From Achromobacter spanius (GTDB taxonomy: Bacteria > Pseudomonadota > Gammaproteobacteria > Burkholderiales > Burkholderiaceae_B), in NCBI RefSeq assembly GCF_029637605.1, contig NZ_CP121261.1, positions 2,170,001 through 2,234,000 on the forward strand: DNA of 64,000 nt, in the 5' to 3' direction. Below are positions 41,145 through 47,822 of the stretch, piece by piece. Below the pieces are notes generated by a model that was given only the letters and a program-made list of their open reading frames with translations, ran no database searches and was not told where the DNA came from. Positions within the stretch are counted from its first letter, which is position 1. Each line of letters starts with the position of its first letter. Made by a program: the position numbers and the translations under genes.

Positions 41145-41381
41145 TTAAGGCTTGGCTTGCGCGGCGCCCGCGCCCTCGCTCGCCGGGGGTGCAACCTGTT
41201 CGATGACCAGGCCGCGCTTGACCACGCCGTCCTGGATAGGCTCGTGGATGAAGTTGCTGTAGGCGAAGTAGATCGTGACAAAGCATCCGATCATGGCCGC
41301 GAACGGGCCGGCCATCAGAATCCACGGCCAGGGTTCCTGGTACCAGGGTTTCGGGATCGGGGCGTGTTGGGCAAGTGTCAT
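41145..41381 (-). CDS. ccoH: Short FixH/CcoH-like protein
   Basis: This 78-residue protein opens KPWYQEPWPWILMAGPFAAM, the conserved FixH/CcoH N-terminus with its one membrane helix, and retains the short block GVVKRGLVIEQ. The periplasmic beta domain of ordinary FixH (about 150-170 residues in all) is missing; only an Ala/Pro-rich end follows. CcoH helps assemble cbb3 oxidase. It follows ccoG by 18 bp. This is a truncated or minimal version; the gene is intact, with no sign of a frameshift. Confidence 0.78.
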   Translation of the reverse strand: MTLAQHAPIPKPWYQEPWPWILMAGPFAAMIGCFVTIYFAYSNFIHEPIQDGVVKRGLVIEQVAPPASEGAGAAQAKP

Positions 41382-41399: not shown

Positions 41400-42890
41400 T
41401 TAATCGGGTACGTAGAAACTGGCGGCTTCGTCGGTCTGGATGGACCGGTTTTCGCCGTCGTGGCCGCGCGCGCGCAGCGTGATGGGATGGGCGCCAGGTT
41501 CCACGCCCGCGGGCGCCCGGATCACCATGGGCACCAGCTTGTTGGCCGCCGCTTCCACGTCGACCGTGTCCGAGCCTGCGCGGCCGGCCATCACTTGCAG
41601 GCCGGGCATGCCGTCGGCCGACAGGCGCAGCCGCATTGCCGTGTCCGACGTGTTGATGATTTGCAGGCGGTAGACGTTTTCAATCTGGCCACCCGCCACT
41701 TCGCGCCCCAGCGCGCCCCGGTCGCGGATGACGTCCACCCGCAAGGGGTTGCGCATCGCCAGCGAGGCAACAAACGCCACGGCAAGGATCAGGATCAGCG
41801 TGCCGTAGATCAGCACGCGCGGGCGCAACAGATGCGAACGCGCGCTTTGGGCGCTCAGGCCGTCTTGCATGGCGCGGTCCGACGTGTACCGAATCAACCC
41901 GGGTTCGTACTGCATCTTGTCCATGACCTGTTCGCAGGCGTCGATACAGGCGCCGCAGCCGATGCACATGTATTGCAGGCCGTCGCGGATGTCGATGCCG
42001 GTGGGGCAGACCTGCACGCACAGGCTGCAATCCACGCAGTCACCCATGCCGGCCGCCTTGTGGTCGACCTTGCGCGAGCGCCCGCCACGCGGGTCGCCAC
42101 GGCGCTTGTCATAGGTCACGACGAAGGTGTCGGGGTCCACCATGACGCTCTGGAAGCGGGCGTACGGGCACATGTACTTGCACACGGATTCGCGCATGAA
42201 GCCCGCGTTGCCCCAGGTGGCAAAGCCGTAGAACAGCATCCAGAACCATTGCCACGGGCCCAGTTGCAGCGTGTACAGTTCATGGCCCAGTTCGCGGATG
42301 GGCGCGAAATAGCCGATGAAGGTGGACCCCGTCCACCAGGCCAGCGCAATCCACAAAAAGTGCTTGGTAATTTTCAGGCGTGCCTTGCGCAGGCTCCACG
42401 GCGACTCGTCCAGGCGAATGCGCGCAATGCGGTCGCCTTCGACCTTGCGCTCGATCCACATGAAGATTTCGGTGTAAACGGTTTGCGGACAGGCGTAGCC
42501 GCAGAACAGCCGGCCCGCCACGGCGGTGAACAGGAACAGCGCCAGCGCCGAGATCACCAGCAGCACGGCCAGGTACACCACGTCTTGCGGCCACAGCACC
42601 AACCCGAACAGGTAGAACTTGCGCGCGCCCAGGTCGAACAGCACGGCCTGGCGGCCATTCCATTGCAGCCAGGGCAAGCCGTAGAAGATGAGCTGGGTGA
42701 TGAACACGAACGCAATGCGCCAGCGGGCGAAGATGCCGCTGACGGATCGCGGATAGATCTTGCTGCGCACGCCCGCCAGCGTCTGCTCCAGGGTTTCAGC
42801 CCCGGGGCGTGGCGGCCGGGTGTGCGGGCGCCAGGGCGGCGGGTCGCCGCCAGGCGGCGTGCCCACGCTTGCGGTTGACCCATCATCCAT
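41400..42890 (-). CDS. ccoG: Cytochrome cbb3 oxidase accessory protein CcoG (FixG/RdxA)
   Basis: This 496-residue polyferredoxin has five or so membrane helices and two iron-sulfur cysteine clusters (CVDCSLCVQVCP and CIGCGACIDAC). Upstream cysteine motifs are RLFCGYACPQTVYTE and VCKYMCPYARFQSVM. The C-terminal ~120 residues form an immunoglobulin-like FixG domain after the last helix. CcoG is thought to reduce copper(II) for insertion into the CuB site. It follows ccoP by 78 bp. Confidence 0.95.
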   Translation of the reverse strand: MDDGSTASVGTPPGGDPPPWRPHTRPPRPGAETLEQTLAGVRSKIYPRSVSGIFARWRIAFVFITQLIFYGLPWLQWNGRQAVLFDLGARKFYLFGLVLWPQDVVYLAVLLVISALALFLFTAVAGRLFCGYACPQTVYTEIFMWIERKVEGDRIARIRLDESPWSLRKARLKITKHFLWIALAWWTGSTFIGYFAPIRELGHELYTLQLGPWQWFWMLFYGFATWGNAGFMRESVCKYMCPYARFQSVMVDPDTFVVTYDKRRGDPRGGRSRKVDHKAAGMGDCVDCSLCVQVCPTGIDIRDGLQYMCIGCGACIDACEQVMDKMQYEPGLIRYTSDRAMQDGLSAQSARSHLLRPRVLIYGTLILILAVAFVASLAMRNPLRVDVIRDRGALGREVAGGQIENVYRLQIINTSDTAMRLRLSADGMPGLQVMAGRAGSDTVDVEAAANKLVPMVIRAPAGVEPGAHPITLRARGHDGENRSIQTDEAASFYVPD

Positions 42891-44980: not shown

Positions 44981-46477
44981 TCAAGCAGTGGCCGGCACGA
45001 CGGGCGCGACAGGCGCGGCGACCGACGGGCGAGCGGCATGGGGATCGTCTTCGGGAATGGCGGGGTTGACCGGCAGCGCACCGCGCACCGTCATCCACAC
45101 GTTCCAGGCCATCACGAACACCCCCGACAGGAACAAGGTGCCACCCAGCAAGCGGATCAGGTAGTACGGCGCGCGCGTCTTCAGTTCTTCAACGAAGCTG
45201 TAGACCAGGGTACCGTCGCTTGCGGTGTCACGCCACATCAGGCCCTGCTGCACGCCGGCAATCCACATGGCGGCGATGTACAGCACCACGCCGATGGTGG
45301 CGATCCAGAAGTGCAGTTCGATGGCCTTCACGCTGTACATCTTTTCGCGGCCGTACAGACGCGGGATCAGGTAGTAAAGCGAGCCGAAGGAAATCATCGC
45401 CACCCAGCCCAACGCGCCGGAATGCACGTGGCCGATGGTCCAGTCCGTGTAGTGCGATAGCGAATTGACCGTGCGGATCGACATCATCGACCCTTCGAAC
45501 GTGGACATGCCGTAGAACGACAGCGCGGTGACCATGAACTTCAGGATCGGGTCGGTGCGCAGCTTGTACCAGGCCCCTTGCAGCGTCATGATGCCGTTGA
45601 TCATCCCGCCCCAGGACGGCGCCAGCAGAATCAGCGAAAACGTCATGCCCAGCGATTGCGTCCAGTCAGGCAGCGACGTGTACAGCAAGTGGTGCGGACC
45701 CGCCCACATGTAGGTGAAGGCCAGCGCCCAGAAGTGGACGATGGACAGGCGATACGAATAGATCGGGCGGCCGGCCTGCTTGGGCACGAAGTAATACATC
45801 ATGCCCAGGAAGCTGGTGGTCAGGAAGAAACCCACGGCGTTGTGGCCATACCACCACTGCACCATGGCGTCCTGCACGCCGGCGTAAGCCGAGTACGACT
45901 TCCACATCGAGACCGGCATTTCAATGTTGTTGAAGATGTGCAGGATGGCGATGGTGAGGATGTACGAGCCAAAGAACCAGTTGGCCACGTAGATGTGCTT
46001 GGACCGGCGCTTGATGATGGTGCCGAAGAAAACGATGGCATAGGCCACCCAGACCAGCGTGATCAGGATGTCGATGGGCCATTCGAGTTCGGCGTATTCC
46101 TTGCTGCTGGTGAACCCCATCGGCAAGGTGATGGCGGCGGCAACGATAACGACTTGCCAGCCCCAGAACGTGAAGGCGGCAAGCTTGTCGCAGAACAGCC
46201 GCGTCTGACAGGTGCGCTGGACCACGTAGTACGACGTGGCGAACAACGCGCTGCCGCCGAAGGCGAAGATCACCGCGTTGGTGTGCAGCGGGCGCAGGCG
46301 GCCGTAGCTGAGCCATGCGGTGTCGAAATTCAACTGAGGCCAAATCAGCTGCGCGGCGATAAAAACGCCCACAGCCATGCCGACAATCGCCCAAACCACC
46401 GTCATGAGCGCGAACTGCCTCACGATCTTGTAGTTGAAGGTGTCGGCCTTGCTTGCGATTGCGGCGCAATCGTTCAT
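44981..46477 (-). CDS. ccoN: Cytochrome cbb3 oxidase catalytic subunit I, CcoN
   Basis: This 498-residue haem-copper oxidase subunit has twelve membrane helices. Haem and copper ligands sit in [24 protein letters not shown] (CuB His), WAGPHHLLY (CuB His pair) and [17 protein letters not shown] (haem His ligands). The final step of respiration at low oxygen takes place here. The ATG at 46477 follows AAGGG. A perfect FNR box lies 67 bp upstream. Confidence 0.96.
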
Positions 46478-46543: not shown

Positions 46544-46557
46544 TTGATATGGATCAA
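46544..46557. promoter_or_regulatory. Perfect FNR/ANR box upstream of ccoN
   Basis: TTGATATGGATCAA is a perfect match to the FNR consensus TTGAT-N4-ATCAA. It lies 67 bp before the ccoN start, so an FNR-type regulator should switch on ccoNOQP when oxygen is low. Confidence 0.9.
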
Positions 46558-46614: not shown

Positions 46615-46788
46615 TTATGAATTGAAGCCGCTGCCGCTGGCGCGGCCGCTGTCGTCGTCGCGCAGGATCGCCGTGCCGGCGCTGTCGGTATCGTCGTACT
46701 GGCCGTTGAACACGGCCCACCAGAGCGCTACGCCGATGGCCAGCACGAACAGCAGGGACAAGGGCAGCAGCAAGTAGAGAATGGTCAT
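46615..46788 (-). CDS. ccoS: Cytochrome cbb3 oxidase maturation protein CcoS
   Basis: This 57-residue protein has one membrane helix (YLLLPLSLLFVLAIGVALWW) and the CcoS signature GQYDDTDSAGTAILRDDD. CcoS is needed for cofactor insertion into CcoN. It is encoded after the ccoI-type gene with an ATGA overlap, and its stop is 138 bp before ccoN. Confidence 0.93.
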   Translation of the reverse strand: MTILYLLLPLSLLFVLAIGVALWWAVFNGQYDDTDSAGTAILRDDDSGRASGSGFNS

Positions 46789-47774
46789 TGCGCTGCTTCC
46801 ATCTTGGCCACGTCCAGCGCGCCCGCATTGGTTGCGCTGCCGGACCAGTCGCGGCGGCACAGGCGCCACGAGTTATAGGCAACCGCCAAGGACGACACCA
46901 GCATCGTGATGGCGGCCAGCCAAGGCTGCACCCAGCCCATCAACGCCAATGGCGTCATCAGCAGATGCCAGACCAGCGAGCCGTAGAGGTTCTGCCGCGC
47001 CTTGTGGCGCGCCTGCCGCAACAGCGCATCCAGCGCGGAGTCGGGCATCGTGGGGTGTGCCGCCAGCGCCGAGTGCGCGGACGCCATCGCCGTGGGCACC
47101 GCCATCGACATGGCGCAAGGGCAGCTCATGACCAGCAGCGCCACCATCACGGGCAGGCTGTGGGCGGGGTCGATATAGGCCCAGCCGATGGCGGCGGCCA
47201 GCGCCAACGCCACCTGCGCCAGCACGAAACGCGACGCCAGGCGATCGGCGCGAGCGCCCAGGTCCAGCCGCTGCGCCTCCACGCGCTGATGGCGCACCCC
47301 GCCCGCCGCGCCGCCAAAGGATTGGCGGGCGCACAGTTCCAGGTAGCGCGCGGTCAGCAGGAACGCCACGAACATCGTGACGGAATCAAAATAGACTTCG
47401 CCGCGCCCCGTCCAGGTGGCGTGCACGCTGGGAATGAACGCGGCGACGATGCCCAGCGCCACCGGCACGTCCATGCCGGCGCGGCCGTGGCGCAGGTTGT
47501 CGCCGGCATGGCGCCAAATGGGCCAGGCCGAATACAGCACCACGGGAATGGTCAGCGCGAAGCTGGCCCAGTTCATCAGCACGATGGCCCAGTCCAGCGT
47601 TTCCAGGGCGTCGGCGGGCATGCTGTCGTGACGCAGGTAGCCGGGCCAGGCAAACATCATCACCTGCATCATCGCCAGCCAGGCCAGCGACAAGCGCACC
47701 AAGGCATGGCGACGCTGCTGGCGGTCGGTATCCGACAGGCAGGACGGGACGGCGAAAATCGATTTTGCTCGCAT
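46785..47774 (-). CDS. CcoI/FixI-derived membrane protein lacking all ATPase domains
   Basis: This 329-residue protein matches the membrane part of CcoI, the copper P1B-type ATPase of cbb3 assembly. Matches are WLAMMQVMMFAWPGY, the conserved GMDVPVALGIVAAF and GEVYFDSVTMFVAFLLTARYLE, CPC in VMSCPCAMSMAVPTAM, and the last two helices (WHLLMTPLALMGWVQPWLAA). The N-terminal metal domain, the TGES actuator loop between helices 4 and 5, and the whole DKTGT phosphorylation/ATP domain between helices 6 and 7 are absent. It cannot pump by ATP hydrolysis. The frame is intact and overlaps ccoS by ATGA, so it is a kept gene, not a decaying one. Confidence 0.85.
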   Translation of the reverse strand: MRAKSIFAVPSCLSDTDRQQRRHALVRLSLAWLAMMQVMMFAWPGYLRHDSMPADALETLDWAIVLMNWASFALTIPVVLYSAWPIWRHAGDNLRHGRAGMDVPVALGIVAAFIPSVHATWTGRGEVYFDSVTMFVAFLLTARYLELCARQSFGGAAGGVRHQRVEAQRLDLGARADRLASRFVLAQVALALAAAIGWAYIDPAHSLPVMVALLVMSCPCAMSMAVPTAMASAHSALAAHPTMPDSALDALLRQARHKARQNLYGSLVWHLLMTPLALMGWVQPWLAAITMLVSSLAVAYNSWRLCRRDWSGSATNAGALDVAKMEAAQ

Positions 47775-47808
47775 GCGCCGATGGTAACGAGCGCCCCCGC
47801 CCAGCACC

Positions 47809-47822
47809 TTGATCTGGATCAA
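47809..47822. promoter_or_regulatory. Perfect FNR/ANR box upstream of the ccoI-like gene
   Basis: TTGATCTGGATCAA matches the FNR consensus perfectly, 35 bp before the start at 47774. It implies that the ccoI-like and ccoS genes have their own oxygen-controlled promoter, second to that of ccoN. With a class II spacing the transcript would begin very near the start codon. Confidence 0.88.

Follow-up and report, generated by a model that had tools for sequence, protein, structure and literature searches.

Within a 64,000-nucleotide (nt) stretch of the Achromobacter spanius genome (contig NZ_CP121261.1, positions 2,170,001 to 2,234,000; hereafter the window), the cbb3 oxidase (cco) locus carries a gene for a protein of 329 amino acids (aa) that corresponds to the membrane part of the copper P-type ATPase CcoI. 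Because its copper-path residues are invariant, it is under strong purifying selection and it is linked to cbb3, we favour, with moderate confidence, the reading that this short CcoI derives from CcoI and now serves cbb3 oxidase as an assembly factor that binds copper in the membrane independently of ATP. Throughout the Alcaligenaceae, short CcoI probably handles copper without ATP, to judge from sequence comparison. The features central to this reading are listed below; numbers prefixed with G, g or L are our own handles.

46785..47774, minus strand: short ccoI, ATG start, 329-aa open reading frame; membrane-only CcoI descendant (helices MA, MB and M1-M6)
47115..47123, minus strand: codons of the CPC motif (C218-P219-C220, in M4), placed by translation and alignment
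46965..46967, minus strand: codon of H270 in M5 (Asn in full-length CcoI), placed by translation and alignment

CcoI reduced to its membrane domain

The initial annotation described the protein as the membrane part of CcoI with CPC retained and with the metal domain, the TGES loop and the DKTGT/ATP domain missing, and called both internal deletions clean. Alignment, profile matches and phylogeny support this description. In the alignment, the N-terminus extends only about 20 aa ahead of MA, without CxxC heavy-metal domains, and neither an actuator domain with its TGE loop nor a DKTGT phosphorylation and nucleotide-binding domain is present. The loop between M2 and M3 measures 14-26 aa in 40 short forms versus 120-127 aa in 13 full CcoI, and the loop between M4 and M5 measures 23-41 aa versus 208-299 aa. 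What is left is a P1B membrane domain with a predicted fold of eight helices, CPC in M4 and the MxxSS motif in M6; the YN motif of M5, typical of P1B-1 ATPases, is replaced by Trp or Phe followed by His in all 40. Consistent with this reduction, the Pfam match to E1-E2_ATPase is confined to its end (profile positions 103-180 of 181). The protein also falls far under the cut-offs of the NCBIfam Cu-ATPase models (TIGR01511: 89.6 bits versus 397). Since the catalytic domain is missing, ATP-driven Cu(I) transport by short CcoI is not expected.

These comparisons drew on 67 short proteins within a 300-335 aa filter, among which L006 and L103 are duplicates and L073 is an additional copy disrupted close to its end. 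The alignment of short forms held 52 sequences, with 15 near-identical genus rows left out, and L008 (339 aa) was used only in the 68-gene sets (selection and adjacency, promoter and loop comparisons). An assembly gap, which would have undone the initial interpretation, is excluded because the same short form recurs in dozens of independent assemblies. A recent pseudogene is ruled out by conservation and by the substitution ratios given below.

A retuned copper path

The copper path of the full-length ATPase AfCopA, as described in part of PMC9433437, runs from M158 at the entry through C380/C382 in M4 and Y682/N683 in M5 to M711/S714/S715 in M6. By alignment, these residues map to M101, C218/C220, W269/H270 and M291/S294/S295 of short CcoI. 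M101, C218, C220, H270, M291 and S294 are invariant (52/52 short forms), and S295 is found in 51 of 52. Other positions have changed consistently: the M5 Asn present in 13/13 full CcoI is His in 40/40 short forms, so that YN reads WH or FH; M224 occupies, in 38 of 40, a site that is Leu in every full CcoI; and Q187 is present in 40/40 short forms and 0/13 full ones. When M5 was scored in 106 full ATPases, 25 had no readable GDG motif and went unscored, and 23 did not fit the pattern; by eye, 22 of these show YN, the exception being L002. The retention of copper residues together with these fixed changes indicates that deletion of the engine went with a copper path that was retuned rather than lost.

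With these residues conserved, copper handling is a better fit than a bare scaffold. As a pure scaffold, the helical bundle would dock CcoN, CcoS and CcoG, copper would arrive wholly via SCO and PCuAC, and the ligands would be inherited and unused. Such a role would suit the persistence of short ccoI beside ccoS (61/68 genes by rule, and six of the remaining seven by eye) and the concentration of conserved residues in or near helices, with variable linkers. We consider it unlikely, as it offers no evident reason for the fixed His instead of Asn, or for the complete retention of the CPC cysteines, M101, M291 and S294 and the near-complete retention of S295.

The same residues bear on a passive Cu(I) channel or carrier working between periplasm and cytosol along the copper gradient, possibly as an importer feeding CcoG or CopZ. 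The entry M101, CPC and the M6 residues of the pump path are all retained, and in AfCopA simulations, in the part of PMC9433437 that treats them, copper travels from the entry site toward M711. That the short gene tracks cbb3 speaks against this reading, which seems to us decidedly unlikely. An ungated copper leak would also be harmful.

Distribution, origin and selection

Within Achromobacter, 36 of 37 genomes, including that of the window, carry the short form, the sole miss being a genome only 57% complete. The initial annotation called for short and full forms to be tabulated across the family, and this revealed that the short form is conserved. Matches to short CcoI (expectation value, E ≤ 1e-20) occurred in 199 of 268 Alcaligenaceae genomes and in 36 of 43 genera. 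Among these, 182 (E ≤ 1e-52; 31 genera) read as short forms, called by open reading frame length for part of the rows and by score for the remainder. Fifteen resemble full ATPases, namely 12 with open reading frames of at least 770 aa, G249 (672 aa), G251, which ends at a contig end, and G221, assigned by genus and score. The last two (G089, G275) are fragments.

Two variants occur. In G015 and G026, both ccoN and short ccoI are present twice; of the extra short ccoI copies (L072 and L073), L072 is intact and has no FNR box, and L073 is the disrupted one mentioned above. In G107 (g31, 4.0 Mb), counted within the 182, short ccoI is interrupted by an IS481-type transposase gene (L119 2053-3003, minus strand), and ccoN is also incomplete.

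No relatives of the short form were seen outside the Alcaligenaceae in the genomes searched, using searches that could miss a short form with a different deletion pattern. Among 399 order-level genomes, nine Alcaligenaceae members with matches scored 447-551 bits, and other families reached at most 175.8 bits among the matches listed, nearly all of those being open reading frames of at least 700 aa and a few shorter. The 398 phylum-level genomes gave no match past 1e-54 except in the window's own genome, and none of the 283 matching plasmid records spanned 80% of the short CcoI query. In a contig search, the top seven (L123-L129) among the best 80 of 239 relatives were short-form matches, all from Alcaligenaceae.

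Judged by its phylogeny, the short form is of single origin. In a tree of 58 rows and 304 membrane columns, one clade (support 100/100) unites the 40 short forms. It groups with full CcoI from g55 and g67, away from CopA; which full forms are closest to it is not firmly supported (94/92 and 85/32). Long branches were seen for CopA_L005, CopA_L002 and F_L117, and odd composition for S_L065, S_L070, CopA_L005 and CopA_L109.

Short ccoI is under strong purifying selection, which the initial annotation had argued from its layout. The within-genus ratio of nonsynonymous to synonymous substitution rates (dN/dS) has a median of 0.117 (range 0.04-0.27; 496 pairs) in a set of 32 genus sequences that includes the second copy L072. 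This result largely refutes the view that the gene is a relic whose protein does nothing and which persists because of its promoter or because its translation is coupled to that of ccoS. The position of short ccoI as the first gene past an FNR box, its ATGA overlap with ccoS and the broken G107 copy beside an incomplete ccoN could all be read that way. Conservation over 31 genera and invariant membrane residues count against a relic, the joint decay in G107 agrees with a cbb3-linked function, and we find the relic explanation scarcely credible.

Linkage to cbb3 oxidase

Short ccoI heads a series of genes on one strand that continues through ccoS, ccoN and other cco genes to ccoP, ccoG and ccoH:

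46615..46788, minus strand: ccoS (TIGR00847 and PF03597), ATGA overlap with short ccoI
44981..46477, minus strand: ccoN, cbb3 oxidase catalytic subunit, ATG start chosen inside a longer open reading frame; search match at G000:C1:2215077-2216441 of the window's genome
42969..44033, minus strand: ccoP
41400..42890, minus strand: ccoG, FixG-type, cupric reductase homologue
41145..41381, minus strand: short ccoH, 78 aa, N-terminal FixH part only

The TGA of short ccoI shares an ATGA overlap with the ATG of ccoS, as was first noted, and the coordinates agree (46785-47774 and 46615-46788, both on the minus strand). By a hand count, a short or full CcoI match is present in 192 of the 201 ccoN-bearing genomes (E ≤ 1e-150) versus 7 of the 67 others. 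Short CcoI thereby displays both the linkage to ccoN and the co-occurrence with it that characterize a cbb3 assembly factor. Of six inspected loci that lack the short form, five have a full P1B ATPase directly 5' of ccoN (two of g46, two of g55, and G262 of g67). Short and full CcoI thus seem to stand in for each other at this locus.

The neighbouring CcoH is also reduced. Among the loci compared (the window, L203-L215 and L217), it measures 57-105 aa, with the N-terminal FixH part only, in the window and in all 12 other Alcaligenaceae loci checked, seven with short and five with full CcoI. In two other families CcoH measures 165-171 aa, and two more outgroup loci gave no readable ccoH. Since short CcoH accompanies full CcoI too, its reduction as a partner of that of CcoI is ruled out; by its sequence, CcoH is a second cbb3 assembly factor stripped of its outer domain, independently of CcoI.

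A predicted FNR-driven promoter

The perfect FNR box ascribed to short ccoI is indeed present, and the 64-kb window contains only one other:

47809..47822, no strand assigned: perfect palindromic FNR/ANR-type box, centre 41.5 nt 5' of the short ccoI ATG
46544..46557, no strand assigned: second perfect FNR box, 5' of ccoN
47781..47786, minus strand: predicted -10 element TACCAT, 6 nt ahead of the ATG

Of 68 short genes, 59 have a box with no more than one mismatch in ten whose centre lies 40.5-45.5 nt 5' of the ATG; 49 have a perfect box in that range, and 35 boxes lie at exactly 41.5. Class II FNR sites usually lie at -41.5, so transcription would start on or beside the ATG. The spacing thus predicts a family-wide, FNR-driven leaderless or near-leaderless transcript of short ccoI. 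The -10 evidence is loose, with TATAGT in 14 genes and some loose match upstream of 63 of the 68. The full ccoI of g46 likewise has a perfect box at 40.5-41.5 nt, so this layout is found beyond the short form; boxes of g55 lie at other distances, and G262 has none.

Probable copper supply by other ATPases

A full-length CcoI elsewhere in the window's genome, a check proposed at the outset, was sought and not found. The genome encodes five other P-type ATPases. Two pass the TIGR01511 cut-off of 397, L001 (594 bits; CPC and an N-terminal CASC; CopA1 type) and L002 (407 bits; CPC kept, no CxxC, no YN in M5), the latter presumably of Zn/Cd type. Neither is CcoI, as both cluster with CopA in the tree, and L003-L005 fall under the cut-off. 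With CopA-type ATPases present and no CcoI found, we infer that copper export is probably left to CopA, the short protein acting downstream or beside it. The genome also has three SCO and two PCuAC matches. Five small short-form genomes (G101, G187, G241, G242, G245) each have one full Cu-ATPase among the matches listed. In G101 (2.0 Mb) this gene (G101:C1:1663510-1665678) adjoins a convergent PCuAC gene, a pair hinting at CopA-to-PCuAC supply.

Short CcoI might instead work in trans with an ATPase, either CopA or an unrecognised soluble ATPase domain. A match to a Cu-type P1B ATPase of ordinary length was indeed found in 26/26 short-form genomes examined, 25 of them above the TIGR01511 cut-off. 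In five short-form genomes, every match to a P/N-domain query was either a long P-type ATPase (718-1158 aa) or the short form, with no stand-alone domain, which rules out a split gene with a free P/N domain there. To our knowledge, no P-type ATPase borrows a membrane domain from another chain, and we regard such a partnership as highly improbable.

A proposed ATP-independent assembly factor

The ATP-independent copper-binding factor that we favour could have arisen and work as follows. CcoI would have shed all its cytosolic domains once, in an Alcaligenaceae ancestor. Within the membrane core, M101, C218/C220 and a retuned M5-M6 site (H270, M291, S294/S295) would hold Cu(I), which would then be handed to CcoN for its CuB site, with periplasmic SCO/PCuAC copper, exported ultimately by CopA, replacing the ATP-driven cytosolic supply. 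Copper binding, the direction of transfer and the CcoN contact are all inferred here. The full model, an ATP-free membrane copper relay loading CuB, with a rebuilt His site replacing the pump's Asn, is tentative, and we judge its likelihood to fall a little short of even.

Several observations weigh against this interpretation. The short query found nothing in nine of the 201 ccoN genomes: a full ATPase is present in G166 and G180, ccoN of G120 and G154 lies at the edge of a contig or close to it, and the others are G176, G177, G178, G190 and G192. Conversely, G065 and G070 have short ccoI and no ccoN match above the cut-off, through loss or an assembly break. Of the six loci lacking the short form, that of G133 (g35) has its ATPase close to, but not directly upstream of, a ccoN-like reading frame, and 9/68 short genes have no well-placed FNR box. 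The cbb3 oxidase may also be poorly assembled in bacteria such as Bordetella bronchiseptica, a member of the Alcaligenaceae. In that species, according to part of PMC11257404, cco transcripts are abundant and a cco-only strain was unobtainable. Finally, model bacteria need CcoI/FixI for cbb3 and added copper provides no bypass, in the portions of PMC7558416 and PMC12617631 that address this, which argues that ATP-driven export matters.

Relation to known systems and implications

Short CcoI most resembles CcoI/FixI, the CopA2-type P1B-1 ATPase for cbb3, in its ccoN neighbourhood, its position in the tree, its MQxM, CPC and MxxSS motifs, and an identity of up to 58-60% to g55 CcoI over MA-M2. 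It differs in lacking the N-terminal metal, actuator, P and N domains, in its WH/FH and the new Q187 and M224, and in length (329 versus 744-846 aa for translated full CcoI). CopA, the CopA1-type P1B-1 ATPase (structures 3rfu, 4bbj, 7r0g), is a full ATPase, whereas the short form sits with CcoI in the tree. CcoA has a major facilitator superfamily (MFS) fold, unrelated to short CcoI. This MFS copper importer is nevertheless similar as a membrane copper protein serving cbb3 (PMC5829832, in part).

We found no description of short CcoI in the part of the open-access full-text literature searched. A survey of beta-proteobacterial copper proteins excluded the CcoI class by design (PMC6769254, relevant part), and a review calls the need of cbb3 for a cytosolic copper pool puzzling (PMC7558416, in part). 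The single origin, the lack of relatives seen outside the Alcaligenaceae, the fixed Asn-to-His change in M5, the FNR-to-ATG spacing and the full P1B ATPase at cco loci where the short form is missing all go beyond the initial annotation.

Current models hold cbb3 oxidase to be strictly dependent on ATP-driven CcoI. If our reading is true, ATP-driven cytosolic export is not intrinsically needed to metallate cbb3, and the CcoI membrane core has a delivery role separable from pumping. Short CcoI would then be an unusual P-type ATPase descendant that has abandoned ATP permanently. The Alcaligenaceae cbb3 loci with only the membrane shell of CcoI are a natural separation-of-function experiment, in which the importance of CcoI as a pump can be set against its importance as an intramembrane copper donor.
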